Assembly (NCBI GenBank): GCA_946479855.1
Contig: CAMLHL010000026.1
Span: forward strand, 1-33,235
DNA: 33,235 nucleotides
Reading direction: 5' to 3'
From: an uncultured Pseudomonadota bacterium
Lineage (GTDB): Bacteria; Pseudomonadota; Gammaproteobacteria; Burkholderiales; Rhodocyclaceae
Below are positions 896 to 29,947 of the stretch, piece by piece. The notes below the pieces were generated by a model. The model was given only the letters and a program-made list of their open reading frames with translations, was not told the origin of the DNA and did not search any database. Each line of letters begins with the position of its first letter. Position 1 is the first letter of the stretch. Position numbers and translations under genes: made by a program.

Positions 896-2910
896 CTACG
901 TGAAGTAGTCGAAGTCGTGTTCGCTGTGGATGTGACGGCGCAAGCGGAAGATGCAGGCCGGGCCGTGCTGCGGATCGAGGCTGAGAAAATTGCGCGGACC
1001 GCTCCACAAGTAACGCCCGTCACCGAGCAGATCGTGCATCTGGTAGGCCTGCTCGCCGATGCCGAAACGCTCGACCGGCAGGGTCAACCAGCCATTCTGA
1101 ACATGATGCGGATCGAGGTTGACCGCGACAATCACCACGTCGGCCGGATCGTCGGCATACTTTCCGTAGCAGATGATCTGCTCGTTATCGACCTCGAAGA
1201 ACTCCAGTTGCCAGTCCTGCTGCAGGGCCAGGTGCGCGTGACGGATGCGGTTGACCCGGGCGATGAGGTCGCGCAGGCTGTCCGGACGCTCAAGATCCCA
1301 GCGCCGTATCTGGTATTTCTCGGAATCAAGGTATTCCTCGCTGCCCGGCTGGCGCGGCGTCGCTTCCAGCAGCTCGAAAGCCGGCCCGTAAATGCCGTAG
1401 TTGGCACCGAGCGTGGCGGCCAGCACCAGACGGACGACGAAGCCGGGACGGCCGCCGAACTGCAGGTATTCGTTGAGAATGTCCGGCGTGTTGGGCCACA
1501 GGTTGGGCCGAAAATACTCGCGCACCTCGCTCTGGGTCAGTTCGGTGAAATAGCTGGTCAGTTCGTGCTTGGTATTGCGCCAGGTGAAATAGGTGTAGGA
1601 CTGCGAGAAACCGAGCTTGGCGAGGCGGTACATCGGTTTCGGCCGAGTGAAGGCTTCGGCCAGGAAGATGACTTCCGGGTGCCTCTGCCGCACTTCGCCG
1701 ATCAGCCACTCCCAGAACGGGAAAGCCTTGGTATGCGGGTTGTCGACACGGAAGATGGCGACCCCCTCACCGATCCAGAACTCGAAGATGCCCTTGAGTT
1801 CCTGCCACATTTCGCGCCAGGCCGGCGTCTCGAAATCGAGCGGATAGATGTCCTCGTATTTCTTCGGCGGATTCTCGGCGTACTGCACGCTGCCGTCCGG
1901 CCGGTGGCGGAACCATTCGGGGTGATCGCCCACGTAAGGATGGTCGGGCGCGCACTGGAAGGCGATATCGAGCGCGAGCTCGATGCCAAGTTCGCGGGCA
2001 CGGTCACGCAGCCGGCGGAAATCGTCGAAGCTGCCCAGCCGCGGATCGATGGCGCAATGGCCGCCGCTCGCCGCGCCAATCGCCCACGGGCTGCCCGGAT
2101 CATTGGCCGTGGCGACCAGCGCGTTGTTGGCGCCCTTGCGCTTGATCGTGCCGATCGGGTGGATCGGCGGCAGATAGAGGACATCGAAGCCCATCGCCGC
2201 GACATAGTCGAGGCGCCGCTGACAGTCGGCGAAGCTGCCATGGTGCGCTGGCTCATCGGCACTGGCGCAGGAGCGGGGAAACATCTCGTACCAGGCGCCG
2301 TAGCGGGCGCGTGGCCGGTCTACCCAAACGGCGAGTTCGGGTTGGTAGGTGCTGGCCAGGCGACGATCGGGGTAGCGCCCGGCCAGTTCGGCGAACAGCG
2401 GGTCGAGGCCAAGTTGCTTGCCGAACTCGGCATCGCTTGTCTGGGACAGGGTCTCAGCCAGTTGCTGCAGATCGGCCCGGTCGCTCCCGTCGGCCCGTTC
2501 CGCCGCCTGCCTCGCCAGTTCGGCGCCGAATTGCAGCGCAACAAGAATATCGGCGGCTTCGACGCGCCGGGCCAGTTCGGCCCGCCACGATAAAAAGTGA
2601 TCGACCCACGCCCTCACCGTGTAGCGGTAGCCGCCGATCTCATCGACGACGAACTCGCCGCGCCAGCGATCGTTGTCCAGGGCCGTCATCCGCGTTTCCT
2701 GCCAGTCGCTTGCGCCATCCTGTCGCCAGCACAGCACGCAGGCAATGCGGTCATGCCCGTCGCAGTAGGCATCGGCTTCTACCACCACGGTGTCACCCCG
2801 ACAGCGCTTGATGGCAAAACGCCCGCCATCGATTACCGGATGCAGCGCTTCGATGACCACCCGGCAGCGGCCGGCATCGACCGTTGACGTCGAGGGAGCG
2901 ATACCCGGAC

Positions 2911-2914
<4 letters not shown>
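896..2914 (-). CDS. glgE: Alpha-1,4-glucan:maltose-1-phosphate maltosyltransferase GlgE
   Basis: Extends alpha-1,4-glucans by transferring maltosyl units from maltose-1-phosphate (GH13_3). It has 672 residues, normal for the family: an N-terminal beta-sandwich (about 20-115), a helical stretch (about 120-190) and the catalytic barrel beginning near [11 protein letters not shown]. Catalytic residues are D391 in [13 protein letters not shown] (nucleophile) and E420 in FLAEAFTRP (acid/base). The motif YLPPIHPIG and the basic motif IKRKGANN are also characteristic. The start codon overlaps the glgB stop (ATGA) behind a GGGAGGG ribosome binding site, so translation is probably coupled. Lying between glgB and treS, it marks a complete GlgE-type pathway apart from maltokinase, which may lie outside the window. 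Confidence 0.97.
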
Positions 2915-4857
<1,943 letters not shown>

Positions 4858-4883
4858 CGCCTCGCGCTCTGCTCACCGCGCCT

Positions 4884-5033
4884 TTAGTCATCCGGGCGAA
4901 AACGCATGCGGGGGCAAGCAAGCCAGGAAGTCAAAGGCACCGCGTTGCAAGATGACGCACTGCTAAACTTGAAATGGATCAGCCCGCTGTCCCGGACGAT
5001 CTCAACGAGTCTGCCCTGCGCTTGTTCGCTCAT
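4884..5033 (-). CDS. Small ORF (49 aa) at the head of the glgB-glgE-treS operon
   Basis: An ATG at 5033 is preceded, with 5-bp spacing, by an exceptionally strong purine-rich Shine-Dalgarno sequence (GGAGGAAGGAG, 5049-5039). The frame runs 49 codons to a TAA at 4884, 26 bp before the glgB start. The protein begins MSEQAQGRLVEIVRDSGLIHF, continues with a Ser/Cys-rich middle and ends in a basic stretch and two Asp; it has no signal peptide or membrane segment. I recognise no family. It could be a leader peptide coupling translation into glgB, a small regulator, or the remnant of a longer gene. The double GGA in the ribosome binding site would suit CsrA/RsmA control, which is known for glycogen genes elsewhere; that is inference only. 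Confidence 0.45.
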   Translation of the reverse strand: MSEQAQGRLVEIVRDSGLIHFKFSSASSCNAVPLTSWLACPRMRFRPDD

Positions 5034-5063
5034 CTAATCTCCTTCCTCCAAACCAAGGAGCGG

Positions 5064-5081
5064 ACATGTTAGAGAACATGT
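5064..5081. promoter_or_regulatory. Perfect inverted repeat, candidate operator upstream of the glg operon
   Basis: ACATGTT-AGAG-AACATGT: perfect 7-bp arms around a 4-bp spacer, ending 31 bp upstream of the small ORF that heads the glg operon. The size and symmetry fit a dimeric repressor site. On the plus strand it is followed by TTTT, so a weak terminator is the alternative. No regulator gene is adjacent. Confidence 0.4.
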
Positions 5082-5223
5082 TTTGGCATGACACCCGTAA
5101 CGATGACAAATTTGCGCTCGGGAAAGTTCCACCCGTTTCCTCCAGGCCGGCGCTCTGCGCCTTGCCCGGTTCTTCCATCAGTGAAACCGGCATCCGGTGC
5201 ATTCGCGTCTGGCAACCGGCAGT

Positions 5224-5451
5224 TCATCCACGGCTAGGCAAGCTGCCGATAACCAGAGCGGCGGCGGCCGTAGCCGCCGACAAAATCCCGGGTGGCTGCC
5301 AGAACGGCTTGCCCGGCCCACAGTCAAAAATCAGGTAAGCGAAGATTTCGGTGCCTTTCGACACCATGCTTGCGATGAACAGCCCGGGTCGCCACTGCCC
5401 CATCCCAAGTGTCACGAGGCCTGGACATCCGATCCAAAGGCGGCGGAGCAT
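5224..5451 (-). CDS. Possible small membrane protein, unrecognised (weak)
   Basis: A 75-codon frame starting MLRRLWIGCPG. It has a hydrophobic middle (GLFIASMVSKGTEIFAYLIF) and a second hydrophobic, Ala-rich stretch (GILSAATAAAALVIG), which could make two membrane segments. The ribosome binding site is poor: the AGAGGA at 5471-5466 is better placed for another ATG at 5458 in a different frame, which gives an unconvincing 44-residue product. Codon choice lacks the strong GC bias of the neighbouring genes. It may be a real small protein, a decayed gene or chance; I recognise no homologue. Confidence 0.2.
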   Translation of the reverse strand: MLRRLWIGCPGLVTLGMGQWRPGLFIASMVSKGTEIFAYLIFDCGPGKPFWQPPGILSAATAAAALVIGSLPSRG

Positions 5452-5483
5452 TAGCCATTGACCAGTCCTCTGTCGCCGCCTTT
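5436..5483. terminator. 10-bp perfect stem with 28-nt loop before the secreted protein gene
   Basis: AAAGGCGGCG (5436-5445) pairs perfectly with CGCCGCCTTT (5474-5483), and a fourth T follows. The stem is GC-rich with A/T ends, as in a bidirectional terminator, but the loop is long. It ends 6 bp before the GGAGG ribosome binding site of the next gene, so it could instead be a 5'-leader structure controlling that gene. Confidence 0.35.
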
Positions 5484-5500
5484 TGCAATGGAGGAAGACG

Positions 5501-6586
5501 ATGCGAAATCGACTGATCGTATTGAGCATGATGCTCTGTTTCGCGCTCCCCGCTTCGGCGGAGGTCAGCGTTAGCGTGGGGATTCAGACGGCGAATATCG
5601 GCATCAGCGTATCGACGTATCCGAACCTGGTCCGGGTGCCGGATTACCCGGTCTACTACGCCGCCGACGTCAATTCGAACTATTTCTTCTACGACGGCAT
5701 GTTCTGGATTTTCGAAGGCGATCGCTGGTATTCGAGTTTCTGGTACAACGGGCCGTGGATACTGGTCGAGCCGGAATTCATTCCGGTCTTTCTCCTGCGG
5801 GTGCCGGTGCGTTACTACCGGCGCCCACCGGCCTACTTCATCGGCTGGCAAGCCAGTGCTCCGCCCCGCTGGGACGACCACTGGGGGCATGACTGGGCTC
5901 GGCGTCGGAGCGGCTGGGATCGCTGGGACCGTCAATCGGCACCAGCCCCTGCCCCGCTGCCCACCTATCAGCGCAATTACAGCGGGGAGCGCTACCCGTC
6001 GGCCGACCAGCAGGCGGTGCTGCATGAGCGGAATTACCGCTACCGGCCAAGCGATCCACTGGTCCGTCAGCAATCAGAAGCCGCAACGGCAAACCAGCCT
6101 GATCGCACACCGCGCGGCAAGTCTGAAATGCCGGAACGAAGAGGGGCTGAGCCACAGGCCGCGCCGCCAAGCCCGGCACCTGCTGCCCGCGAGTCGGCAC
6201 CGCTCGACAGGCAAGCGCCGCGCAGCAGCCCGCCGCTTCCGCGCGAGACAAACGTGCGACCGCCAACGGTGCCGCCAGGCCCGGCACCTTCTGCCCAAGA
6301 GCCCGTGCCAGTCGACAGGCCGGCGCCGCATCAGCCACGGGCGAAGGAAAGGCCGGAACAACAAGCACAACCAATGGGCGGACCACGTGGCGAAGAGCGC
6401 GCCATGCCGCGCGGCAGCCCGCCGGCGCCACGCGAGATGCGGCCGCAAGCCGAGCCGAACCAGCAGCGCATGGCGCCCCCGCGTGAAGATCGACTCCCTT
6501 CCGGCCCGGGCGAAGCCGGACAACGGCATGGTCGGCCCGGGCCACAGGAAAAATCCGACGAGCGCGGCCCGGAGCGCGGTCGATAA
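5501..6586 (+). CDS. Secreted Pro-rich protein of unknown function
   Basis: Begins with a Sec signal peptide (MRNRLIVLSMMLCFALPASA, cleavage about residue 20). An aromatic-rich domain of about 130 residues follows, with DYPVYYAADVNSNYFFYDG and GDRWYSSFWYNGPW, a pattern seen in uncharacterised periplasmic proteins of betaproteobacteria. From about residue 130 the sequence is low complexity, rich in Pro, Arg, Glu and Gln, with an imperfect internal repeat (PPSPAPAARESAPLDRQAP and PPGPAPSAQEPVPVDRPAP). The ATG at 5501 is chosen because GGAGG lies at 5490-5494; an in-frame TTG at 5483 lies upstream of that site. The long disordered tail suggests an extracytoplasmic spacer or interaction region. 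Function unknown. Confidence 0.8.
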   Translation: MRNRLIVLSMMLCFALPASAEVSVSVGIQTANIGISVSTYPNLVRVPDYPVYYAADVNSNYFFYDGMFWIFEGDRWYSSFWYNGPWILVEPEFIPVFLLRVPVRYYRRPPAYFIGWQASAPPRWDDHWGHDWARRRSGWDRWDRQSAPAPAPLPTYQRNYSGERYPSADQQAVLHERNYRYRPSDPLVRQQSEAATANQPDRTPRGKSEMPERRGAEPQAAPPSPAPAARESAPLDRQAPRSSPPLPRETNVRPPTVPPGPAPSAQEPVPVDRPAPHQPRAKERPEQQAQPMGGPRGEERAMPRGSPPAPREMRPQAEPNQQRMAPPREDRLPSGPGEAGQRHGRPGPQEKSDERGPERGR

Positions 6587-6896
6587 CGCTGGATGGCGAT
6601 GGAGGCGGGTATTTTTCGACCGCCCGCCTCCATCAAGCGGCGTTCTGGCGTCCAGACAAGACACCCTTCGAGATCGGCAACCGTGATCGCGTCAAGGATG
6701 AGGGGCCGGGGGACCTTCAGGCCGCCGCAAGCGCCGGCCCCCCGGATGGCGGCAAAGGCCGGCTTGCGCAGCGCGCTGGCCGCCTGAATGTCAGCCATGA
6801 GCGTCAACTCGCGGCACGGGTGACGGAGACCGCTGACCGCATCGCAAAGTTGTAGTAGCCTTGCGACCCCTTTCGACGTCGAACCAGGTCATGATC
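6587..6896. other. Gene-free stretch with one hairpin
   Basis: After the hairpin at 6598-6634 I see no recognisable gene. On the minus strand a GC3-biased frame starts near 6798 (MADIQAASALRKPAFAAIRG) and reads to about 6600 before running antisense through the end of the secreted protein gene. It has no good ribosome binding site and no recognisable family, so I do not call it a gene. The promoter of the DUF3348 operon must lie here, but no clear -35/-10 is visible. Confidence 0.4.
6598..6634 (+). terminator. Putative terminator hairpin after the secreted protein gene
   Basis: GATGGAGGCGGG (6598-6609) pairs perfectly with CCCGCCTCCATC (6623-6634): a 12-bp stem and 13-nt loop, starting 12 bp after the stop codon. 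There is no T-tract after the stem (a T5 run lies in the loop), so it is not a classical intrinsic terminator; mRNA 3'-end protection is an alternative. Confidence 0.5.
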
Positions 6897-7685
6897 ATGA
6901 CGCGTGAATTGCAACGCGCCACCTTCAACCGCTCTGCCCTCGTCCGCGTCCTGTCCGACACCCTCCCGGAGCTCCCCGATCCGAAATACGATTTCGGCCA
7001 ACGGCTCGGGCAGTGGCTGGATTTTTCGGATGCGCTGACGCTGTTTTCGGTCCTCAATACGGAGGCCGGCAGCAGCACGCCCTCACCTCCGGCGGAAGGC
7101 GAACTGCCTGCCCGCCTGGAGCGCGTGCGCCGCAACCTGGGCGATTCGATCCACAACGACGGGGTCTTCAACCGCGCACCGACGGGTGTGGCCGCCCGTA
7201 TCCCTTTTCCGACGCCGCTGCCCAACGCATCGGCGGAGAGCGCCGCCGATTTTTCGCCCTACCACCGCTACTACCTGGCCCACCAGCGCGACATGAACTC
7301 CGCCGTCACGGCCCTGCGCGCCAGCGCCCGCAAGGCGCTGGCCAGCCAGTCCGCAGCCGGCAAGCAACTGGCCGAACTCGATGCTGTCTTCGAGAAATTC
7401 CTGACCGCCCGCGAGCGCCATCTGCTCGCGAACATCCCGATCATGCTCGGCAAACACTTCAAGCAGCGTTACGCCGCACACCGTGCCCTCCTTGGCGACG
7501 GCTGCATTGACGATCCCGCCACCTGGACGCAAGCGGGCAGCTGGCTCGAGGCCGTCTGCCAGGACACCCAGACCGTGCTGCTGGCCGAACTGGAACTGCG
7601 CCTGAAGCCTGTCGCCGGCCTGATTTCATCCCTGGCTGCAACCCCCGGTGGCACGGGCGAAAATAACGAATCGAAATCCCAATGA
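6897..7685 (+). CDS. DUF3348 family protein, first gene of the long-tail motor cluster
   Basis: A 262-residue soluble protein with the DUF3348 N-terminal signature: RATFNRSALVRVLSDTLPEL followed by DFGQRLGQWLDFSDALTLFSVLN. The C-terminal half is helical (about 130-245, including YHRYYLAHQRDMNSAVTALR). No catalytic motif, signal peptide or membrane helix is visible. In-frame starts exist at 6861 (TTG), 6891 and 6897; the ATG at 6897 has AGG at 8-bp spacing. The stop overlaps the next start (ATGA), so it is translationally coupled to the channel protein. The biochemical role is unknown; from context it probably serves the DUF802/OmpA complex, perhaps on the cytoplasmic side. Confidence 0.88.
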   Translation: MTRELQRATFNRSALVRVLSDTLPELPDPKYDFGQRLGQWLDFSDALTLFSVLNTEAGSSTPSPPAEGELPARLERVRRNLGDSIHNDGVFNRAPTGVAARIPFPTPLPNASAESAADFSPYHRYYLAHQRDMNSAVTALRASARKALASQSAAGKQLAELDAVFEKFLTARERHLLANIPIMLGKHFKQRYAAHRALLGDGCIDDPATWTQAGSWLEAVCQDTQTVLLAELELRLKPVAGLISSLAATPGGTGENNESKSQ

Positions 7686-10054
7686 ACCGCAATCTCAGCC
7701 TCCTCGCCTTCTTCCTCGGCCTGTTTGCCGTGCTCTGGGTAGCCATCGGCTACATCGGCGGCAGCCCGCTGGCCTTCACCGTTTCCTGCATCATTGGCGT
7801 GGTCTATGTGGCCGGTGCCCTCGAAATGCGGCGCTTCCACGACAACACGGCAGCGCTGGCCAAGGCTCTCGGCAACATCCCGGACGATATCGGCCACCTC
7901 GGCGAATGGCTGCAACAGGTGCCGGCCGCGCTGCAGAATGCCGTCCGCCTGCGCATCGAAGGCGAGCGCGTTGCCCTGCCCGGGCCGGGCGTCACGCCCT
8001 ATCTCGTCGGCCTGCTCGTTTTGCTCGGCATGCTCGGCACCTTCCTCGGCATGGTCGTCACGCTGAATGGCGCCGTACTGGCGCTGGAAAGCACGACCGA
8101 CCTGCACACCATCCGCTCCGCGCTGGCCGCGCCGGTCAAGGGGCTCGGCGTCGCCTTCGGCACCTCGGTCGCCGGTGTCGCCACCTCGGCCATGCTCGGC
8201 CTGATTTCCGCCCTCTGCCGGCGCGACCGCCTGCAGGTCGGCCAGCTGCTCGACAGTAAGATTGCCAGCGTGCTGCGCGACTTCTCGCTCGCCCATCAGC
8301 GCCAGGAGACCTTCAAGGCCCTGCAGGCGCAGGCCCAGGCGCTGCCCGACCTGGTGGGCAAGCTCGACGCCATGATGAGCCAGATGGCCGAACAGAGCCG
8401 CCAGCTTGGCGAGCAGCTGCTGGCCGGGCAGCAACGCTTCCATGAGGAGAGCAAGGAGCTTTACGGCAACCTCGCCCAGTCCGTCGACCTGTCGCTCAAG
8501 GCCAGCCTCAAAGATAGCGCAACGGTGGCGGCGCAGACCATCCAGCCTGTTGTCACCGCCACCATGGCGAGCATCGCCGGCGAAACGCGCGGCCTGCACG
8601 ACAAACTGTTCGGCACCGTCGAAACGCAGCTCGCCGGTATCGCCGAGCAGTTCTCGGACACCGTCGGCACTGTCAGCGACACCTGGACGCAAGCCCTGAC
8701 CCGCCACGAGCAGGCCACCGACGTCCAGCACCAGCAGCTGCAAAGCGCCCTCGCCACCTACGCCGACACCTTCGATCAACGCGCCGCCGCGCTGCTCGGC
8801 TCGGTCGAATCCACCCAGGCCAAGCTGCAGGCCGCCGCCGCGCAACAGCACGCCTTGCTGGCCGAAACCACCACCGCCAGTCAGCAACAATTGGCCACTA
8901 CCCTCGCCCGCCAGTTCGACGGCGTCACGACCCGCCTCGACCGGGCCGTCAGCCAGGTCGCCGACAGTTTCGGCGAACGCACCCAGACCCTGCTCGCCTC
9001 CATCGACGCCAGCCACGCGACCTTCGCGCAAAGCACGCAAGCCCAGCAGGCTGCGCTGACGCAGCAGGTCGCCAGCCAGCTCGACGGTTTTGCCCAGCGT
9101 TTTGATGGAATCGTGCAAACAGTGTCGGACACCTGGAGCGGAGCGTTGGCCAAACACGAGCAGGCCAGCGACCGCCTGACCCAGGCGCTGGACCAGACCC
9201 AGTCCTCGCTGGCCGATACCTTCGCCCAGCGCACCGCCGCACTGCTCGCCGACATGCGTGCCACCCAGGCCGACTGGCAACGCGACTGGGCAACCGGCGA
9301 ACAGACACGCCAGGCCAGCTTTACCGACGCCCTGAGCGCCATGGCCGGCAAGCTGGAAGCGCAATGGCAGCAGGCCGGCCAGGCGACGCTGGCGCAGCAG
9401 GAGCAGATCACGCAAACGCTGGGCAACACGGCCCGCGACCTTGTCGCCGCCACCCAGCGCCAGGCTGAAACAACCATTGCCGAAGTCACCCGCCTGATGC
9501 AGACCGCCGCCGAGGCGCCCAAGGCGGCGGCCGAAGTCATCGGCCAACTGCGCCACGAACTTTCGGCGAGCATGGCGCGCGACAACAGCCTGCTCGAAGA
9601 ACGCAGCCGCATCATGGAAACGCTGGGTGCCCTGCTCGATGCCATCAACCACGCCTCGACCGAGCAGCGCAGTGCCATCGACGCGCTGGTCGCCGCCTCG
9701 GCCGATCTGCTCGAACGCGCCGGCAGCCAGTTCGCCGCCAAGGTCGAGAGCGAAGCCGGCAAGCTGGTCGACATCGGCACCAGCATCACCGGTGGCGCCC
9801 TGGAAGTTGCCAGCCTGGGCGAGGCCTTCGGCGCCGCGGTCAAGCTCTTTGCCGAATCGAACGACAAGATGATGGCCGCCCTGCAACGCATCGAAGGCGG
9901 GCTGGCCAAGTCGCTGACCCGCAGCGACGAGCAACTCGCCTATTACGTTGCCCAGGCGCGGGAAATCATCGATCTCAGCATCATGTCGCAGAAGAAAATG
10001 GTCGATGACCTGCAACGCGTCGCCCAGTTTTCTGACAACCCCGGCGAGGCCTGA
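7682..10054 (+). CDS. DUF802 protein: MotA/TolQ/ExbB-like channel with a ~600-residue helical tail
   Basis: A 790-residue inner-membrane protein with four predicted membrane helices (about 6-25, 29-48, 106-128 and 152-178). TM3 (LLGMLGTFLGMVVTL, T120) and TM4 (GLGVAFGTSVAGVATSAMLG, T161) match the proton-channel helices of the MotA/TolQ/ExbB superfamily, including the conserved threonines. From about residue 185 to the C-terminus the sequence is Ala/Gln-rich and almost Pro-free, as expected for a long helical or coiled-coil tail. The tail contains DUF802-type repeats: VSDTW at 331 and again at 481, each followed by HEQ, and FxxR-type units at F364, F430 and F514. A canonical TolQ or ExbB stops near 230-250 residues. 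ATGA coupling to DUF3348 and a 2-bp gap to the OmpA-like gene indicate one complex. Function unproven. Confidence 0.9.
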   Translation: MNRNLSLLAFFLGLFAVLWVAIGYIGGSPLAFTVSCIIGVVYVAGALEMRRFHDNTAALAKALGNIPDDIGHLGEWLQQVPAALQNAVRLRIEGERVALPGPGVTPYLVGLLVLLGMLGTFLGMVVTLNGAVLALESTTDLHTIRSALAAPVKGLGVAFGTSVAGVATSAMLGLISALCRRDRLQVGQLLDSKIASVLRDFSLAHQRQETFKALQAQAQALPDLVGKLDAMMSQMAEQSRQLGEQLLAGQQRFHEESKELYGNLAQSVDLSLKASLKDSATVAAQTIQPVVTATMASIAGETRGLHDKLFGTVETQLAGIAEQFSDTVGTVSDTWTQALTRHEQATDVQHQQLQSALATYADTFDQRAAALLGSVESTQAKLQAAAAQQHALLAETTTASQQQLATTLARQFDGVTTRLDRAVSQVADSFGERTQTLLASIDASHATFAQSTQAQQAALTQQVASQLDGFAQRFDGIVQTVSDTWSGALAKHEQASDRLTQALDQTQSSLADTFAQRTAALLADMRATQADWQRDWATGEQTRQASFTDALSAMAGKLEAQWQQAGQATLAQQEQITQTLGNTARDLVAATQRQAETTIAEVTRLMQTAAEAPKAAAEVIGQLRHELSASMARDNSLLEERSRIMETLGALLDAINHASTEQRSAIDALVAASADLLERAGSQFAAKVESEAGKLVDIGTSITGGALEVASLGEAFGAAVKLFAESNDKMMAALQRIEGGLAKSLTRSDEQLAYYVAQAREIIDLSIMSQKKMVDDLQRVAQFSDNPGEA

Positions 10055-10056
10055 GC

Positions 10057-10701
10057 ATGGAAGACATCGATGCCGGCGTCGAACACAGCACGCCGATCTG
10101 GGCCGTATTCGGCGACCTGATGTCCGGTCTGCTCGGCGCCTTCGTGCTGATCCTGGTCGGCGTGCTCGGGGTGCAGCTCGACCTCGTCACTAGCCTCGAA
10201 GCCGAAATCCAGAAACGCCAGCAGGAAGAACAGCGCCGCGAAGCACTCGAAAAGGCGCTGGCCGGCCCGCTCGCCTCCGGCCGCGTGACGCTCAACAACG
10301 GCAAGATCGGCATCAGCGGCAACGTGCTCTTCGCCCTCAATTCCGACCAGTTGCAGCCGGAAGGCAAGCAGCTCCTGAAGAGCCTCGCCCAGCCCATTGC
10401 CGCCTACCTCGGCGCCAGCGAGCAGATGCTGATGGTCAGCGGCTTTACCGACGACATGCCGGTGCGCGGCAGCAACCGCCAGTTCGCCGACAACTGGGAA
10501 CTCTCGGCCCAGCGCGCCCTGACCGTCACGCGCACGCTGATCGAGGATGGCGTGCCCTCGTCGTCGATCTTCGCCGCCGCCTTCGGCGCGCAGCAACCGG
10601 TGGCCGACAATGCCGACGCCGAAGGCCGTGCCCGCAACCGCCGCGTCGAAATGGCGCCGGTGCCCAAGTCCCGAACCAGCGGCAAGGAAGGCAATGGCTG
10701 A
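10057..10701 (+). CDS. MotB/OmpA-like protein with ion-carrying Asp, partner of the DUF802 channel
   Basis: A 214-residue protein with a single N-terminal membrane helix (about 14-37) carrying D20 in PIWAVFGDLMSGLLGAFVLI, the position of the MotB/ExbD/ZorB proton-carrying aspartate. A short helical linker (EAEIQKRQQEEQRREALEKAL) leads to a periplasmic OmpA-like domain (about 80-205). That domain has the peptidoglycan-binding signature VSGFTDDMP, then NWELSAQRALTVTRTL and RARNRRVEM. With the upstream MotA/ExbB-like protein it forms a complete stator-type pair: a cytoplasmic tail at one end and a cell-wall anchor at the other. The start has GAGG 6 bp upstream and the stop overlaps the DUF2894 start by 8 bp. 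Family membership is clear; role inferred. Confidence 0.92.
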   Translation: MEDIDAGVEHSTPIWAVFGDLMSGLLGAFVLILVGVLGVQLDLVTSLEAEIQKRQQEEQRREALEKALAGPLASGRVTLNNGKIGISGNVLFALNSDQLQPEGKQLLKSLAQPIAAYLGASEQMLMVSGFTDDMPVRGSNRQFADNWELSAQRALTVTRTLIEDGVPSSSIFAAAFGAQQPVADNADAEGRARNRRVEMAPVPKSRTSGKEGNG

Positions 10702-11386
10702 AACGGCTGAAATGGGCGACCTTCAGGCCCGGCTCGATGCCCTGCGCGCCAGCGGTGCGGCCGAACGCGACCCCGTCCACTTCGCCTACCTCGATGCCCT
10801 GGCCCGCCGCGCTGCCAGGCAACCGGAGGCGATCCGCCAGTCGCTCAACGCCAAAATCAGCGCCGCCGCCAGTGAACTAGCCGGCCGCCCGCTCCCGGCG
10901 CCGACTGAAAGCGCCCCGGCCAGTACTGCCAGTCCGCTCGCCGACCTGCTCATCTATCTCAGCGAACACGCCCACGGGCAAGCAGGCACGACGCAGCATG
11001 CAACGGGCAATGCTACGGTCGACCGGACATTTCGCCCAAAATCGAAAGATGCTTCGGCCGGCCGCAACCGGGCCGCCCCGGAACTCAAATCCGTCGCCTA
11101 CTTCCGCAACGAGTGGTCCAAGCTCAGCACCGAACAACAACTCACCCAAACCCTCGCCCAGGCCCCCGAAAACGCCGGCCCCATGAATTCCCAGCACCTC
11201 GTCCTGCGCAGCCTGCAACGCATGCGCGACATCGCGCCGGATTACCTGCAAGGATTCATGTCCTACATCGACACGCTGATCTGGCTGGAGCACGCTGACC
11301 CGACGAAGGTGGCGGCCAGTCGCTCGGCGGGTAGCGAGGGAGAGAGCAAGACGCGAACTGCAAAACGTAGCACGACGAATCGCTAA
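10694..11386 (+). CDS. DUF2894 family protein, last gene of the long-tail motor cluster
   Basis: A 230-residue soluble protein. The N-terminal region (LQARLDALRASGAAERDPVHFAYLDALARR) is helical, the middle (about 60-130) is low complexity, and the C-terminal domain (about 135-205) carries the DUF2894 pattern: FRNEWSKLSTEQQLTQTLAQ, PENAGPMNSQHLVLRSL, MRDIAPDYLQGFMSYIDTLIWLE. The tail is basic and Ser/Thr-rich. The ATG at 10694 lies inside the OmpA-like gene (8-bp overlap), indicating coupling. No enzymatic motif is visible. DUF2894 and DUF3348 are probably accessory partners, possibly binding the long tail of the DUF802 protein (inference). Confidence 0.88.
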   Translation: MAETAEMGDLQARLDALRASGAAERDPVHFAYLDALARRAARQPEAIRQSLNAKISAAASELAGRPLPAPTESAPASTASPLADLLIYLSEHAHGQAGTTQHATGNATVDRTFRPKSKDASAGRNRAAPELKSVAYFRNEWSKLSTEQQLTQTLAQAPENAGPMNSQHLVLRSLQRMRDIAPDYLQGFMSYIDTLIWLEHADPTKVAASRSAGSEGESKTRTAKRSTTNR

Positions 11387-18032: not shown

Positions 18033-20489
18033 ATGCCACGACCCAGCGAACTCCTTCCCGAAGCGCTCTACACCGCCTGCGACCCAGTACTTCTTTCGTT
18101 TTCCTCGACCGCCGAGTTATCAGAACTCGATCCGGTGCAGATTCATCCGCGTGCCATGGAGGCGCTGCATCTGGGACTCGATATGCCATACAGGGGCTAC
18201 AACCTGTTTGTTCTCGGGGAAGCTGGCAGCGGGCGTCATGCCATCGTACTGCAACAACTGAAACAGGAAAGCGTTCACGGCGCACCGCCTGCCGACTGGT
18301 GCTACGTGCTCGACTTTGCCGATTCGACCCGGGCGCGCCTGTTAAAACTCCCATGCGGGCGGGGGGCTCAGTTGTACAGCGACATGCAGGAATTTGTCGA
18401 CGAAATTACGACCACCATTGCCGCAGCCTTTGAAGGCGACGAATACCGTGCACGCGTCGAATCGCTGCAGGAGGAGGAAAAAAAGCGCGAGGAAGACGCG
18501 GTGCGCCAACTCGGCCAGGATTCGCAGGATGACGGGGTGGCCCTGTTGCGCACTCCCCACGGCTTCGCCTTCGTGCCTATGAAGAATACCGAGGAGACGA
18601 TGTCTCCGGAAGAGTTCACCGCCCTTTCGGATGAACAAAAAAACGAATTCGAGGCCAAGATTCGGGCCAATCACGAAAAGCTGCACCGGCTGATGAATGA
18701 GTTCCCGCACTGGCGCAGGGAGATACAGAAGGCTATCAAGAATCTCGGCACCGACGCGCTACGGCTCGCGGTCGGCCATCTGATCGAGGAGATCAAGCTC
18801 CATTACGCGGATTTGCCCGATGTCACAGCCTACCTCGACGCCGTGATGCAGGATATTCTCGAAAGTGGGCAGTCAATTCACGAATCGGTAAAGAGCGACG
18901 ATGATGGTGAAACCACTCTCTATTCGGGCGCCATCTCGGTCCACCGCTATCGGGTCAACCTGCTGGTTGAGAACCCTGCGAGCGGAGAACGCCCGATAAT
19001 TTACGAGGATAATCCAACACTGCAGAATCTGGTCGGGCGCATCGAACACCATGTGCACATGGGTACGCTGATCAGCAACTTCACCTTGATCAAGGCAGGC
19101 GCCCTGCACCGGGCCAATGGTGGCTTCCTCGTCATCGATGCCCGCAAGCTGCTCTCCCAAGCCTACGCTTGGGACGGTCTCAAGCGGACGCTGCGTTCAG
19201 GAGAGGTCCGCATTGAATCGCTGGCCGAGCTGGTCGGCCTGAGCAGCACGGTGCAACTGGAGCCGGAACCACTGCCGCTCGACCTCAAGGTGATCCTGAT
19301 CGGCGAGCGCATCATCTATTACCTGCTGGCCGAACTCGACCCGGATTTTCTGGGGCTGTTCAAGATCAATGCCGATCTCGAAAGCGAAGTCACCCGTACG
19401 CCGGAAGGCACCGCCCAGTATGCCCGCCTGATCGCCACCCTGGCCCACCGCGATGGACTGCGTCCGCTCTCGGCTCCAGCCGTTGCGCGCGTCATCGAAC
19501 ACGCCGCCCGGCTGGCCGGTAATGCCGAGAAGCTGACCACACAGACTCAGCCGCTGAGCGACCTGATGCGCGAAGCCGACCACGTCGCCGACACCGCTGG
19601 CGCAGGCGTGATCGAGCGCGAACACGTCGAAAGCGCCCTTCATGCGCATCGCCACCGTAACGAACGTATCCAGGAGCGCTATCAGGAGGAAATTCTCCGC
19701 GGCCAGCTATTGATTGCAACCGATGGCCTGCACGTTGGCCAGATCAACGGTCTCGCCGTCGCCATGCTCGGCGAGAGCAGCTTTGCCCACCCGGTGCGCA
19801 TCACCGCAACCGTGCGCATGGGCGAAGGTGAAATCATCGACATCGAGCGTGAAGTGGAACTTGGTGGTCCCATCCACTCCAAGGGGGTGCTGATCCTGTC
19901 GTCCTTCCTGGCTGCCCGCTTCGGCTGGGCCATGCCGCTATCGCTACGCGCCAGCCTTGTTTTCGAGCAATCGTACGGCGGCGTCGAAGGCGACAGCGCC
20001 TCATTGGCCGAGTTGGCAGCCCTGCTCTCCACCATTTCCGCCGTTCCGATCCGCCAGTCGCTGGCGGTCACCGGCTCGGTCAATCAGTTCGGTATTGTCC
20101 AACCGGTCGGCGGAATTAACGAAAAAATCGAGGGTTTTTTTGAAATCTGCGCCGCTCGCGGTCTAACCGGTGGGCAGGGGGTCATCATTCCGGCTGCGAA
20201 CGTCTGTCACCTGATGCTGGAACCGTCCGTCGTCACGGCGGTGCGTGAAGGACGTTTCCATATCTGGGCCGTGCATGACACGGACGAAGCGATGGAATTG
20301 CTTACCGGCCTAGAGGCAGGCGAGCCGAATGAAGAGGGAGAGGTACCCGAAGGGACGCTGAACTTTCATATCGCCCTGCAACTGGCTGAACTGGCGCAGA
20401 TGCATCAGGAAATGCTGCATCCACCCCGTTCTCGCAAGCCCCGCAAACGAAAAGCCAAGCCGGCCAAGGCCAACCGGCCTCAGACATAA
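18033..20489 (+). CDS. Lon-related (LonC-like) ATP-binding protease
   Basis: An 818-residue protein with an N-terminal AAA-like domain, a long helical coiled-coil insertion (about 130-250) and a C-terminal Lon-type Ser-Lys protease domain. S655 in EGDSASLAEL and K698 in VGGINEKIEGF form the dyad, 43 residues apart as in Lon. The first P-loop reads GEAGSGRHAI: the Lys is Arg and no Ser/Thr follows, so nucleotide binding there is probably weak, as noted for LonC-type members. HRANGGFLVIDARKLL and LDLKVILIGERIIYYLL resemble Walker B/sensor regions. The C-terminus is Lys/Arg-rich. The start ATG has only a distant AAGGGA. Likely a cytoplasmic quality-control or stress protease; it is not the housekeeping lonA. 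Confidence 0.92.
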   Translation: MPRPSELLPEALYTACDPVLLSFSSTAELSELDPVQIHPRAMEALHLGLDMPYRGYNLFVLGEAGSGRHAIVLQQLKQESVHGAPPADWCYVLDFADSTRARLLKLPCGRGAQLYSDMQEFVDEITTTIAAAFEGDEYRARVESLQEEEKKREEDAVRQLGQDSQDDGVALLRTPHGFAFVPMKNTEETMSPEEFTALSDEQKNEFEAKIRANHEKLHRLMNEFPHWRREIQKAIKNLGTDALRLAVGHLIEEIKLHYADLPDVTAYLDAVMQDILESGQSIHESVKSDDDGETTLYSGAISVHRYRVNLLVENPASGERPIIYEDNPTLQNLVGRIEHHVHMGTLISNFTLIKAGALHRANGGFLVIDARKLLSQAYAWDGLKRTLRSGEVRIESLAELVGLSSTVQLEPEPLPLDLKVILIGERIIYYLLAELDPDFLGLFKINADLESEVTRTPEGTAQYARLIATLAHRDGLRPLSAPAVARVIEHAARLAGNAEKLTTQTQPLSDLMREADHVADTAGAGVIEREHVESALHAHRHRNERIQERYQEEILRGQLLIATDGLHVGQINGLAVAMLGESSFAHPVRITATVRMGEGEIIDIEREVELGGPIHSKGVLILSSFLAARFGWAMPLSLRASLVFEQSYGGVEGDSASLAELAALLSTISAVPIRQSLAVTGSVNQFGIVQPVGGINEKIEGFFEICAARGLTGGQGVIIPAANVCHLMLEPSVVTAVREGRFHIWAVHDTDEAMELLTGLEAGEPNEEGEVPEGTLNFHIALQLAELAQMHQEMLHPPRSRKPRKRKAKPAKANRPQT

Positions 20490-22639: not shown

Positions 22640-23302
22640 TCAGCGCACCTCGATAGTCGCAGTCCGTCCGGATTTTCCTCCTGCGCGGCGCAGAAGTTCG
22701 GCAATATCCGTATTGTTGGATCGCATCGCAAGATCGAGCGCAGTCTCACCAGTATCGAGTATCAGGTTCGGATTGGCCTTGCTATTTAACAACAGGCGAA
22801 CAACCTCGATGTGCCCGTTGCGTGAGGCGGCGATCAGTGGCGTCGTGCCGTTTTCGGCCGGGAGATTGACGTCGGCACCGGATTTGATCAGGAATTTTGC
22901 AATATCCAAATAGCCGGCAAACGATGCGTAGGCCAATGGTGTCCACCCGCGCATGTTGACCGCTGCACCACCGGCGACAAGAAGTTCGGCAATTTTCAGT
23001 TGCCCCCGAATGGCAGCGATCCGCAAGGCGGTGTCGCCGGCGGAGTTACGGGCATTCAATTTGGCGCCATGCTTGACCAGATAGCCAGCCAGTTCAACAT
23101 GGCCATCCCGCGTGGCGAGTATGAGCAGGGTATTTCCCTCGATATCCGTGGTATCGATCGACGCTCCCTTGTTGATCAGGGTGGCCACTTCGTGCGTATC
23201 GCCGGCCTTGGTTGCACTGATCAGATCATCATAGGTATCGGCGCCGGCCAGCATCGGGATGGCCAATGCGACGGTCAACAGCAGTTTTTTGATCATTTTC
23301 AT
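22640..23302 (-). CDS. Periplasmic ankyrin-repeat protein
   Basis: A 220-residue protein with a Sec signal peptide (MKMIKKLLLTVALAIPMLAGA) and about five ankyrin repeats covering nearly all of the mature protein (for example EGNTLLILATRDGHVELAGYLV, AGDTALRIAAIRGQLKIAEL, GTTPLIAASRNGHIEVVRLL). The C-terminus is short and basic. The start overlaps the tatD stop (ATGA), so it is the last gene of the mltG-tmk-holB-pilZ-tatD chain. Exported ankyrin proteins act in some bacteria as catalase or envelope-stress partners, but no such partner gene is here. Likely a protein-protein interaction module; partner unknown. Confidence 0.9.
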   Translation of the reverse strand: MKMIKKLLLTVALAIPMLAGADTYDDLISATKAGDTHEVATLINKGASIDTTDIEGNTLLILATRDGHVELAGYLVKHGAKLNARNSAGDTALRIAAIRGQLKIAELLVAGGAAVNMRGWTPLAYASFAGYLDIAKFLIKSGADVNLPAENGTTPLIAASRNGHIEVVRLLLNSKANPNLILDTGETALDLAMRSNNTDIAELLRRAGGKSGRTATIEVR

Positions 23303-24072
23303 GGTCGTTGGGCGTGGGTGAACAGCGAAAAGAAATTATCGGTGGTGGCCTGCCGGATTAGTTCAATCGGCTGCGAGCGCAGCCGGGCAATTTCTTCGGC
23401 CACATAACGAACATAGGCCGGTTCGTTCGGTTTGCCGCGATACGGTACCGGCGCCAGGTATGGTGAATCGGTTTCGACGAGGATCCGGTCAAGCGGGCAT
23501 CGCTGGGCGACTTCCTTGACGACGGTGGCATTCTTGAATGTAACGATGCCGGAAAACGAAAGATAAAAGCCAAGATCGAGGGCCTGGCTGGCAATCTCCC
23601 AGTTTTCGGTAAAGCAATGCATGACGCCACCGACCGCTTCGGCCCCCTCTTCCCGCAGGACGCGCAACGTATCGAGTGCCGAATCACGGGTATGGACGAT
23701 CAGTGGCTTGCCGCAACGCCGTGCTGCCCGAATATGGGTGCGAAAACGTTCTCGCTGCCACTCCGGCTTGTCCTTCTGCCAGTAGTAATCGAGCCCGGTT
23801 TCGCCGATGCCGAGCACTTTGGGATGGCTGGCCAGTTCGACGAGGCGATCTTCACTGGCGTCTTCGACATCGGTGTATTCGGGATGAACTCCGACAGTGG
23901 CATACAGTCGGGGCTCCTGCTCGGCCAGCGCCAGCACCTTGGGAAAATCTTCGAGATTGACGCCGATACAGACAGCCAGGCCGACCTGGTTTTCCTGCAT
24001 GTGCTGCAGAACCTCCGGCAAACGACTAGCCAGATCAGGGAAATCGAGATGGCAGTGGGAGTCGACCAGCAT
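23299..24072 (-). CDS. TatD-family metal-dependent DNase/hydrolase (YcfH-like)
   Basis: A 257-residue amidohydrolase-fold protein. Metal and catalytic motifs are complete: H6 and H8 in VDSHCHLDF, Glu in GIGETGLDYYW, His in LIVHTRDS and GVMHCFT, and Asp in LVETDSPYLAPVPYRGK. The length is standard for TatD/YcfH (about 255-265). Homologues show 3'-5' exonuclease or DNase activity. It sits 9 bp after pilZ and overlaps the ankyrin gene by 4 bp. The position after holB and pilZ is the common arrangement in proteobacteria. Confidence 0.95.
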   Translation of the reverse strand: MLVDSHCHLDFPDLASRLPEVLQHMQENQVGLAVCIGVNLEDFPKVLALAEQEPRLYATVGVHPEYTDVEDASEDRLVELASHPKVLGIGETGLDYYWQKDKPEWQRERFRTHIRAARRCGKPLIVHTRDSALDTLRVLREEGAEAVGGVMHCFTENWEIASQALDLGFYLSFSGIVTFKNATVVKEVAQRCPLDRILVETDSPYLAPVPYRGKPNEPAYVRYVAEEIARLRSQPIELIRQATTDNFFSLFTHAQRP

Positions 24073-24081
24073 TCCGGTCGA

Positions 24082-24444
24082 TCAGAGGGTGTGCGTCGGC
24101 CGGGCCGACTGCATGACACCGCCGAGCAGCCCTTCGATCTTGCGACGCGCTTCCTGACCACTTTCGTCGTTGTTGAAGTGCACGCCGATTCCCTGCGCCC
24201 GACCATTCTGGGCCCCCGCCGGCGTAATCCAGACAATCGTTCCAGCAATCGGGAGCTTGGCGGGATCATCCATCAACGACAACAGCATGAAGACTTCATC
24301 GCCGATCTTGTAGCTGCGGGTTGTCGGGATGAAGATGCCGCCGCCCCGCAAATGCGGCATGAATGCGGCGTAAAGCGCCGATTTTGAATTGATATTCAGC
24401 GAGAGAACGCTCGGGCGCTGGGGAGCGGGTTTGGCTTCACTCAT
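24082..24444 (-). CDS. pilZ: PilZ-domain protein (type IV pilus-associated)
   Basis: A 120-residue single-domain protein. RPSVLSLNINSKSALYAAFMPHLRGGGIFIPT followed by IGDEVFMLLSLMDDPAKLPIAGTIVWITP and GIGVHF matches the canonical PilZ of type IV pilus biogenesis. That member lacks the RxxxR and NxSxxG c-di-GMP motifs, and neither is evident here. It acts with the pilus ATPase PilB and FimX-type proteins. The holB-pilZ linkage (6-bp gap) is the classical location in beta- and gammaproteobacteria. Confidence 0.93.
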   Translation of the reverse strand: MSEAKPAPQRPSVLSLNINSKSALYAAFMPHLRGGGIFIPTTRSYKIGDEVFMLLSLMDDPAKLPIAGTIVWITPAGAQNGRAQGIGVHFNNDESGQEARRKIEGLLGGVMQSARPTHTL

Positions 24445-24450
24445 TGGCGA

Positions 24451-25470
24451 TCAATTGGCAAACAGGGCTCGGTAATCCAGAAAGAGGCCTTCCAGGAAGA
24501 GGCGCGCATTGAGCGGCTGCTCGGCCTCCTGGCGACGGGATATTACAGCTCGATACGACTGCATCAAGCGTGCAGCCGGAATCATATCAGCCAAGCCCGA
24601 AATTGTGGGCTGCTGGGGGAGAAAATAACGCACAGGCATAGCATTCTTGGCCAGTGTCAGATCGACCAGCCATTTCTGTAATGCTTCGACGACATGTTTC
24701 AACAGCAGTTTCCCCTTGCTGTCCTTGATGGCTTTCTCCAGCTCGGCGGCGATGGTCAGCGGATCTCCGCTGCGGCCGGCGCCCAGGCGAGCGGCCAGCA
24801 GTTCGAGCCAGGCATTCTGACCGCTTGCCGCCATATCGAGCGCCAGGCCGGGCGAGCCGCCGGCCAACGCCAGCCAGCGCTCGGGCTGGGCCAATCCTTC
24901 TTCAGTCAGGATCTTGGCTGCCACCCTGGTCGGCGGAACCGGGACCGGCACCATCTGGCAGCGGCTCCGGATAGTTGCCAACAAGCGCATCGGTTCATTT
25001 GAAACCATTAAAAATAAAGTACCTGCAGATGGTTCCTCAAGTGTTTTAAGAAGAGAATTAGCGGTGCTGCGATTCATAGCCTCGGTAGGGTTGACGATGA
25101 CGATCCGCAAACCGCCACGGTGCGTGCCGATAGTGAAGAATTCATCCAGTGCGCGCACTTGGTCGATGGTGATTTGCTGGCTGGGTTTTTTCTTGCCATC
25201 CTCAACCTCGACGTCTTCGCCCAGCGCATCCGGTTGCAGTAAGCGAAAATCCGGGTGATTGCCCTGCGCGAACCAGTTGCAGGCCAGGCATTTACCGCAG
25301 GCCAGACCATCTGCCCGGGGAGACTCGCACAACAGACTAGCGGCAAAACGACGCGCCAGCTCGAATTTCCCCAAACCTTTTTGGCCAACTAGGAGCAATG
25401 AATGCGGCAAGCGATCCCGCCTTGCCTGCAAACCCATCCAAATTTTTGAGTGAAGCTCAATTACATTCAT
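24451..25470 (-). CDS. holB: DNA polymerase III subunit delta'
   Basis: A clamp-loader subunit of the replicative polymerase, 339 residues. The AAA+ module carries a P-loop-like [11 protein letters not shown], a four-Cys zinc motif ([17 protein letters not shown]), [21 protein letters not shown] and the SRC motif in ATIRSRCQ. The ATG at 25470 is chosen because it overlaps the tmk stop (ATGA); a TTG two codons earlier also opens the frame. Essential housekeeping gene in the mltG-tmk-holB-pilZ-tatD chain. Confidence 0.96.
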
Positions 25471-26081
25471 AAACAATCAACTGTAATGATTTGTTCAAGT
25501 TGTTTACGAATATTTTCGATAGTCTGATTGGCATCAATCAGACGAATTCGCGAGGGGCTCGCGTGCGCCCTTTCCAGGTAGGCCAGGCGAACGCGCTCAT
25601 GAAAATCTGCGCGCTCTTGCTCGAACTTGTCGAGCACGCGATTGGCCAAGGCAATGCGCTCGCGCGCCACGTCCAGCGGCAGGTCAAACAACAGCGTCAG
25701 ATCGGGTTGCAGATGCCCATGGACCCAGTGCTCAAGGGTCAGAAACTTGGCACGATCGAGGCCGCGACCGCCGCCCTGATAGGCGTAGGTCGCATCGCTG
25801 AAGCGGTCGCAGACCACCCATTCGCCACGCGCCAGGGCGGGTTCGATCAAGCGGGCCAGATGCTCGCGACGGGCGGCGAACATCAGCAGGGTTTCGGTCT
25901 CAAGATGCATCGGTTCATTGAGCAGCAACTCGCGCAGCTTTTCGCCCAAGTGCGTCCCCCCCGGCTCGCGCGTCACATGCACCGCCTTGCCGCGTTCACG
26001 CAGAAATTCCGCCAGCCATTCGACGTGGCTGCTTTTGCCGGCACCGTCGATGCCCTCGAAAGTGATGAATTTACCGTTCAC
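25467..26081 (-). CDS. tmk: Thymidylate kinase
   Basis: Phosphorylates dTMP to dTDP. The 204-residue protein has the P-loop [16 protein letters not shown] at the N-terminus, [15 protein letters not shown] (the DRX/TREPGGT motif that binds dTMP), [19 protein letters not shown], and a LID region with [13 protein letters not shown]. The length is standard. The start overlaps the mltG stop by 4 bp and the stop overlaps holB, so the three genes are translationally coupled. Confidence 0.97.
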
Positions 26082-27073
26082 TTCCCACCCCTCTGATATT
26101 TATTAACCGCTTTGTTGTGGTCGTCCAATGTCCCGGAAAACTCGCTGCTGCCATCGCCCCGCGCCACGAAATAGAGCGCTTCGCTGGGCGCCGGATTCAA
26201 TGCCGCATGCAGGGATGCCTGCCCGGGCATGGCAATCGGCGTCGGCGGCAAACCGACACGCAGGTAGGTATTGTAGGGACCGTCATTTTGCAGATCGCGC
26301 TTTCGCAGGTTGCCGTCGAATTTCTCCCCCAGCCCGTAAATGACGGTCGGATCGGTCTGCAACAACATACCCCGGCGCAGGCGATTGATGAAAACTGCGG
26401 CAACCAGTTGCCGATCCGCCTCGCGGCCGGTTTCCTTCTCGACGATGGAAGCCATAATCAGCGCTTCGCCAGCCGTCTTGTACGGCAGGCCGGGGGCTCG
26501 GTTCTCCCACTCGGCATCGAGTTTGCGCTGCATGGCACGATGGGCGCGTGCCAGGAGTTCAAGGTCGCTAGATTGCTTGTCGAACAGGTAGGTATCCGGA
26601 AAAAGCTGCCCTTCCAGGCTGCCGACCTGCAGGCCCAGCCGTTCGATGATTTGTGCTTCACTGAGTTCAAGCGCCTCATGGACAAGATCGGGATGCTTGT
26701 CGAGCCGCGCCCGCCACTGGCGGAAAGTCCAGCCTTCCACAAGGGTGAGCTCGCCCTGCGTGACTTTCCCCTTGAGCAATTTGTCCAGCAGATGTCGCGG
26801 GGTAACCCCCTGATTCACGGCATAGCTGCCTGCCTTGATGGCGGTATCGGACCTGTTCAGCCTGGCCAGCATGGCGAGCAGTGTCGGATTGACGTCGATC
26901 CCGGCTTCACGCATCTGGGTGATCGCCGAACGCAGGCTGCTGCCGGAGGTCACCCGAAAATCAAGCGGCGAAGTGCTCAGCACCAGGGGCTGGCTGGCCC
27001 ACCACAACAGACCGCCGGCGGCAATGGCCAGCAACAGCGAGATGGAGAGAAATATCTTGATCAGGAAGCGCAC
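26078..27073 (-). CDS. mltG: Endolytic transglycosylase MltG (YceG)
   Basis: A membrane-anchored peptidoglycan terminase that cuts nascent glycan strands. The 331-residue protein has one N-terminal membrane helix (about 5-27), a LysM-like region (about 35-105) and the YceG domain with the catalytic Glu E212 in [14 protein letters not shown], plus [12 protein letters not shown] and [21 protein letters not shown]. It is the first gene of the minus-strand chain; its promoter must lie in the 92-bp gap shared with the divergent ygfZ gene. Confidence 0.96.
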
Positions 27074-27099
27074 GGGAACTCGTTGGCGGCAAGGAGGTC

Positions 27100-27140
27100 T
27101 TGCCCGTGTGGAACGAGCACGTTATAACCAGCGATATAAT
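27100..27140 (+). promoter_or_regulatory. Putative sigma-70 promoter of the ygfZ gene
   Basis: TTGCCC (27100-27105), a 17-bp spacer and TATAAC (27123-27128) form a good -35/-10 pair. A perfect TATAAT at 27135-27140, preceded by GCGA, could serve as an alternative -10. Both lie shortly before the ygfZ ribosome binding site (GGAG, 27157-27160). Confidence 0.5.
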
Positions 27141-27165
27141 ATCCGAAACCCCATCTGGAGCCCCT

Positions 27166-28916: not shown

Positions 28917-29947
<1,031 letters not shown>

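Follow-up and report, generated by a model that had tools for sequence, protein, structure and literature searches.

A complete Zorya type III operon predicted in a Rhodocyclaceae contig, with a length-variable rod and a conserved rod tip in its ZorA protein

In this study, a stretch of DNA of 33,235 nucleotides (nt) from an uncultured Pseudomonadota bacterium of the Rhodocyclaceae (the window; contig CAMLHL010000026.1 of GenBank assembly GCA_946479855.1, positions 1 to 33,235 of the forward strand) was analysed, and four adjoining genes on its plus strand were assigned to the anti-phage system Zorya type III. By protein similarity, the host is probably a betaproteobacterium of the Azonexus/Dechloromonas group. 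The first gene (6897..7685) encodes a soluble accessory protein of 262 amino acids (aa) belonging to the DUF3348 family. The second (7682..10054) encodes ZorA type III (ZorA3, 790 aa), composed of a MotA/ExbB/TolQ-like channel and a cytoplasmic rod, and the third (10057..10701) encodes ZorB type III (ZorB3, 214 aa), with one transmembrane helix carrying D20, a linker, and an OmpA/MotB domain that is putatively peptidoglycan-binding. The fourth gene (10694..11386) encodes a DUF2894 protein of 230 aa, counted from the ATG that overlaps the stop of the OmpA gene by 8 nt. Hydropathy analysis with an in-house script showed transmembrane segments at approximately residues 3-49, 97-135, and 157-179 of the channel protein, a single one at 13-49 of the OmpA protein, and none in the DUF3348 and DUF2894 proteins.

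The junctions between the genes were a 4-nt overlap (DUF3348/ZorA), a 2-nt gap (ZorA/ZorB), and an 8-nt overlap (ZorB/DUF2894), confirming the coordinates and the tight spacing described in a first-pass annotation of this DNA. Gene order was conserved in relatives as well: tblastn showed all four genes in the same order at 38 of 44 related loci, the remaining 6 reaching a contig edge first, and the arrangement is therefore more than a chance one. At more distant loci, all four genes were detected by tblastn in 18/20; one other (L114) was complete by its PF11445 match, and another (L106) runs off its contig, the DUF2894 match of that genome lying on a separate contig. Among 33 further loci (L045-L077), ZorA adjoins DUF3348 in 31, with one locus cut by a contig end and one having a sub-threshold hit. 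An open frame of 848 aa was also observed antisense to ZorA3 (7469-10015, minus strand); it is taken as a high-GC shadow frame, because homology and conservation sit on the plus strand.

Each of the four proteins matched its PADLOC model for Zorya type III, with E values of 1.6e-69 (ZorG3, the DUF3348 protein), 5e-282 (ZorA3), 1.4e-113 (ZorB3), and 1.4e-63 (ZorF3, the DUF2894 protein). In Pfam, the DUF3348 protein matched PF11828 (228 bits, E = 1.5e-67; scanned as a frame extended to an upstream TTG at 6861), the OmpA protein matched PF00691 (71 bits), and the DUF2894 protein matched PF11445 (165 bits, E = 4.3e-48; scanned as a frame extended to an upstream ATG at 10547). The OmpA protein also scored 377.9 bits against NCBIfam NF006547, for which the cut-off is 194. 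The channel protein had been called a DUF802 protein in the first-pass annotation; it does contain DUF802, which is a 53-residue piece of the ZorA3 tail and not the whole protein. Names of the accessory proteins clash between sources, DUF3348 being ZorF and DUF2894 ZorG in the text of PMC8565338, versus ZorG3 and ZorF3, respectively, in PADLOC-DB 2.0.0.

To compare the two membrane proteins with known structures, profiles were built from 26-row alignments (A9 for the channel protein, A8 for ZorB3). Against all chains of the Protein Data Bank (PDB), the channel profile gave 8vvn_C as its sole match at E ≤ 1 (E = 1e-6, over residues 108-181), and in this alignment T120 and T161 were both aligned to Thr. 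With the ZorB3 profile, matches at E ≤ 1e-6 were obtained to 49 PDB sequences. For 47 of these the best stretch lay in the OmpA domain, in some cases with part of the linker, and only for 8vvn_B (7-205) and 8qyd_F (9-200) did it start before the membrane helix; 8qyd is presumably a Zorya I structure.

Flagellar MotAB/PomAB and MotD resemble ZorA3 and ZorB3 in the OmpA/MotB domain and in the logic of the ion site. However, the best stretch in MotB/PomB was the OmpA domain with some linker and not the membrane helix, Pfam MotA_ExbB was not found in the channel protein at E ≤ 0.01, no MotA chain accompanied 8vvn_C among the PDB matches at E ≤ 1, and no flagellar genes were found among the window proteins scanned with Pfam. 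ExbBD and TolQR follow the ion-driven 5:2 logic that is predicted for type III ZorAB, with Thr in the channel helices; their ExbD/TolR partner carries a small domain, whereas ZorB3 carries an OmpA domain. No ExbB or TolQ chain was obtained at E ≤ 1 with the ZorA3 profile, and TonB/TolA genes were not found among the window proteins scanned with Pfam. A flagellar, Tol or Ton motor was ruled out by these Pfam and PDB profile results.

PMC11890865 lists 8VVN as a type I ZorAB, from Shewanella sp. ANA-3. Both profiles match chains of this type I structure, and that of ZorB3 also matches 8qyd. With types I and II they share a MotA-like channel with a long rod and a ZorB with a membrane Asp and an OmpA domain (PMC11890865). 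They differ in that neither ZorC and the ZorD helicase of type I nor the ZorE HNH nickase of type II was found among the window proteins scanned (14 with PADLOC, 30 with Pfam). With type III, all four genes and strong scores to each model are shared, and the difference is only in host lineage. From these sequence comparisons, it is almost certain that the four genes represent Zorya type III as a complete operon.

Zorya type III was defined by Payne et al. 2021, who reported 6,401 loci, and cloning of the type III operon of Stenotrophomonas nitritireducens into Escherichia coli gave phage protection (PMC8565338). It has also been reported in a Variovorax (PMC11953036). The operon is therefore already a named, experimentally tested defence type (PADLOC; PMC8565338), of which one more member is described here, and the function is not unknown as the first-pass annotation had it; a new stator family without known function is ruled out, since all four proteins match existing Zorya III models in PADLOC. 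The same annotation had pictured a ZorAB-like motor in which DUF3348 and DUF2894 replace ZorC/ZorD. This picture agrees with the ZorAB-like 5:2 stator, long rod and replacement of ZorC/ZorD that Payne et al. 2021 proposed for type III, and is not new (PMC8565338). In that paper, zorBC is printed where zorAB seems to be intended.

The residues of the ion site, T120 and T161 in ZorA3 and D20 in ZorB3, were located at the positions given previously, and their conservation in homologues held. The alignment rows were subsets of loci picked for spread, with the window sequence included. D20 was invariant in 20/20 rows of A3 and 26/26 of A8, and T161 in 22/22 rows of A2 and 26/26 of A9. T120 was invariant in 22/22 rows of A2 and in all 25 covering rows of A9, the one row without it (L109) having a mispredicted start. 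Eight further residues of ZorB3, compared with a view to peptidoglycan binding (D132, L149, S150, R153, R191, N194, R195, and R196) were invariant in the 26 rows of A8.

ZorA3 consists of a channel (approximately residues 1-230, with T120 and T161 in the channel helices) and a cytoplasmic rod (approximately 231-780), giving a tail of approximately 560-600 aa; the tail of about 600 residues and the single-transmembrane OmpA protein noted in the first pass were thereby upheld. Within the rod, a middle part (approximately 391-480) varies in length and the distal tip (approximately 601-780) is conserved. The shortest of 57 ZorA3 copies had 639 aa and the longest 1193 aa. In an alignment of these 57 sequences, the most frequent residue at each position had a mean frequency of 0.67-0.93 at 91-300 (channel and start of the tail), 0.36-0.45 with 28-54% gaps in the rod middle (391-480), and 0.74-0.85 in the tip (601-780, the last 180 residues), around a segment like RSDEQLAYYVAQAREIIDLS. 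This set leans to Rhodocyclales, so that conservation is inflated everywhere, while the contrast along the chain persists. Hydrophobic residues of the tail had a dominant period of 3.66 (11/3), for the window protein as well as for the average over the 57 ZorA sequences, and the window tail contains 3 Pro and no Cys. If it formed one straight helix at 1.5 Å per residue, the rod would be approximately 84 nm long in the window and approximately 60-145 nm in relatives. We read the rod as a putative spacer of variable length that joins the motor to a conserved working tip. In Zorya types I and II, the rod is needed for defence (PMC11890865).

The two accessory proteins were compared with known families and folds. 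In Pfam (E ≤ 0.01) and PADLOC, neither matched any family but its own, NCBIfam gave no match for either, and profile searches of the PDB with either protein found no relatives below E 0.2. An AlphaFold2 model of the DUF3348 protein was all-helical, with a mean predicted local distance difference test score (pLDDT) of 79.8 and a predicted template modelling score (pTM) of 0.75; Foldseek found no match for it at E ≤ 0.001, and VIA-align returned only generic helical bundles. For DUF2894, the model was likewise helical and Foldseek found no match at E ≤ 0.001, its confidence being low (mean pLDDT 62.9, pTM 0.32). In these Pfam, NCBIfam, PADLOC, PDB-profile, and Foldseek searches, DUF3348 and DUF2894 showed no resemblance to a known nuclease or enzyme signature.

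DUF2894 has a Lys/Arg-rich C-terminal tail, with a net charge of at least +3 after the conserved WL motif in 42/45 sequences. Over the last 30 residues, the charge was at least +3 in 37/45 sequences versus 30/149 neighbouring open reading frames (ORFs), and at least +5 in 25/45 versus 7/149, some of the control ORFs being shadow or spurious frames. This tail would be compatible with DNA binding. Among control genomes, PF11445 was also above the cut-off in Corynebacterium glutamicum, outside the Proteobacteria.

Presence of the genes was examined in 349 genomes of the order, with DUF3348, ZorA3, and DUF2894 searched genome-wide and ZorB judged within loci. PF11828 was over the cut-off in 23 genomes, of which 22 were strong (best E ≤ 1.3e-27) and one scored 26.7 bits; PF11445 was present in 22; and the ZorA3 channel gave E < 1e-60 in 22, the next best being 5.4e-8. 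The strong sets were the identical 22 genomes for the three genes, in keeping with the co-occurrence anticipated in the first-pass annotation. In a sample of 150 genomes of the family, DUF3348 was over the cut-off in 29 and purL was present in 148; the patchy distribution of the operon is therefore not explained by genome incompleteness. No match was found by tblastn among 50,697 phage records, and a pattern scan of IMG/VR viral contigs gave 28 matches, none a confirmed relative. Among 72,556 plasmid records, 27 matched, all of them replicons of 0.37-3.5 Mb and 20 of them predicted to be non-mobilizable. Cargo of phages or small plasmids was ruled out by these record searches.

The flanks of 65 records (the window and 64 others) were compared, each flank being at most approximately 10 kb and frequently shorter. 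The commonest flanking gene was purL, located upstream and antisense within approximately 5 kb in at least 14/65 records (L003, L004, L005, L006, L009, L010, L014, L018, L021, L022, L025, L026, L038, and L119), a lower bound since many flanks are short; a constant fifth gene was therefore rejected. Downstream of the operon, selO was found in 8/65 records. The window operon, like some other copies, is not beside purL. Its GlgE, GlgB, HD protein, and AMP-binding (acyl-CoA synthetase-like) genes had no counterpart among the other 64 records (E ≤ 1e-20), and at the same threshold its carboxylesterase gene recurred in one (L120). A core operon with one fixed home was ruled out, since the neighbour genes of the window rarely recur and purL adjoins 14/65 records, not the window. 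In a Dechloromonas metagenome-assembled genome (L008), positions 2355-8663 share the ankyrin/TatD/holB/tmk/mltG/TANGO2 stretch of the window (22640-28947) with 66-84% identity. The operon of that genome begins approximately 1.3 kb after the TANGO2 gene and that of the window ends 16.8 kb before it, that is, on opposite sides. The overall picture suggests a chromosomal accessory operon that may have its preferred site next to purL in this group and has been relocated as well.

Among relatives, at most 6/84 picked neighbour frames matched any PADLOC family at E ≤ 1e-5, a weak test given that antisense shadows occur among the frames. The first 25 of 69 Pfam families of relatives' neighbours, among whose frames are again antisense shadows, were ordinary metabolic, transport, and signalling families and one phage-tail gene. 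In the window, the GlgE maltosyltransferase and GlgB branching enzyme genes (896-4857, minus strand) overlap by 4 nt; GlgB matches PADLOC model C3a214, which is described as GlgB, and this is most likely a generic enzyme match. A Pro/Arg-rich frame at 5483-6586 (plus strand) begins like a signal peptide, is rich in Tyr/Trp in its N-terminal part, and had no Pfam match at E ≤ 0.01. Other ordinary neighbours include a LonB/LonC-like protease (18033-20489, plus strand) and a subunit II of cytochrome c oxidase that carries cytochrome c domains (30685-31899, plus strand).

We consider it likely that this is a complete Zorya III anti-phage operon working by a stator-driven rod, with DUF3348 and DUF2894 blocking DNA. 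From the homology with types I and II, an inner-membrane stator driven by ions is expected, built of five ZorA3 and two ZorB3 subunits. On disturbance of the envelope by a phage, ZorB3 would sense the disturbed wall and its OmpA domain would grip the peptidoglycan. Ions would then flow via the D20/T120/T161 site, and the flow would cause ZorA3 to rotate or reshape its cytoplasmic rod, recruiting the effector. In the reading that we prefer, DUF3348 and DUF2894 would dock at the rod tip, concentrate at the injection site, and block incoming DNA by non-enzymatic means, and the basic tail of DUF2894 would contact this DNA. Types I and II assemble as 5:2 complexes, and their rod, Asp, and peptidoglycan binding are all needed (PMC11890865); by analogy, type III may assemble and fire in the same way, and we infer both its docking partner at the tip and its effector step.

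Several observations weigh against this mechanism. In the GxTD-like motif of ZorB3, residue 130 (window 10444-10446), which we mapped by motif to H186 of ZorB I, is Phe in 25/26 sequences and Tyr in 1/26, whereas ZorB I and II carry a His required for peptidoglycan binding (PMC11890865); because of this substitution, peptidoglycan binding by ZorB3 may differ from that of ZorB I. The model of DUF2894 is poor, and its basic tail is short and variable; compared with 899 picked ORFs, which also include some shadow or spurious frames, 18% of DUF2894 sequences attain the 95th percentile of charge, a weaker contrast. Literature available on Zorya type III yielded only one functional test and no dissection of DUF3348 or DUF2894. 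In infected Burkholderia cenocepacia, changes were confined to the leading one or two genes of Zorya I and of Zorya III, and type III is absent from the systems that the authors named as transcriptionally active in the text available (PMC12584637). For location in a defence island, which the first-pass annotation had raised, the scanned neighbours in the window gave no sign: only 2/10 match PADLOC, as GlgB and TatD, both generic enzymes.

How the DNA would be stopped can be read in more than one way. One reading, which we regard as rather improbable, is a Zorya system free of nucleases, in which a wall-anchored ion motor and a variable spacer rod end in a conserved tip holding two all-helical, non-enzymatic adaptors, with the basic tail of DUF2894 capturing or clamping phage DNA. 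If this were true, a rotating rod would defend the cell by physically capturing or winding DNA instead of cleaving it. An effector resembling a nuclease has been expected in the literature for every subtype; for type III, the searches described above lend this no support. Nevertheless, DUF3348 or DUF2894 could be an unrecognised nuclease, or the pair could bring in a host nuclease acting in trans, a recruitment suggested for every subtype, and we hold this, too, to be rather unlikely. It has in its favour that Zorya I employs ZorC/ZorD and Zorya II the ZorE nickase. No nuclease was recognised in the type III proteins, however, which is a further difference from types I and II: the own-family matches in Pfam and PADLOC, the lack of any in NCBIfam and of PDB relatives below E 0.2, and the all-helical models without Foldseek matches (that of DUF2894 of low confidence) all argue against it, and the flanks showed no fifth gene that constantly accompanies the operon.

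The ion leak itself might instead be the effector, with ZorA3B3 opening on infection and depolarising the membrane in an abortive response that DUF3348/DUF2894 merely gate. PMC8565338 cites earlier work that put forward such a leak for Zorya. In the same paper, protection by type III was seen in liquid cultures at a multiplicity of infection < 0.1, which would fit an abortive response; the ion-site residues are also invariant. A long rod with a conserved distal tip would, however, be unnecessary for a leak, and in types I and II defence requires the rod (PMC11890865); we hold this explanation to be quite unlikely. We regard it as very unlikely that the operon serves its hosts chiefly as a resident system for envelope or stress functions and protects against phage as a by-product of being expressed in E. 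coli. In R. solanacearum, type III has been cited to exemplify highly conserved defence systems (PMC13064858), and this explanation would also suit the core gene purL lying upstream in at least 14/65 records, the lack of phage-record or confirmed IMG/VR matches, the restriction of plasmid matches to replicons of 0.37-3.5 Mb, and the absence of defence genes among the scanned window neighbours. Against it, the operon is patchy (29/150 family and 23/349 order genomes, versus purL in 148/150), and the window copy and some others are sited away from purL.

The operon is a database-recognisable member of a published type, and its discovery in itself is unsurprising. Added by this analysis are the variable rod with its conserved tip, the basic tail of DUF2894, the dissimilarity of both DUF proteins to known nucleases, and the patchy distribution. 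Interest now centres on the effector, which is missing, and on the conserved tip of the rod. The conserved tip of ZorA3 offers a definite place to seek a docking site, and with conserved rod ends, a variable middle, and accessory proteins that lack an enzyme signature, Zorya type III would be a natural place to test the arrest of phage DNA without cutting.

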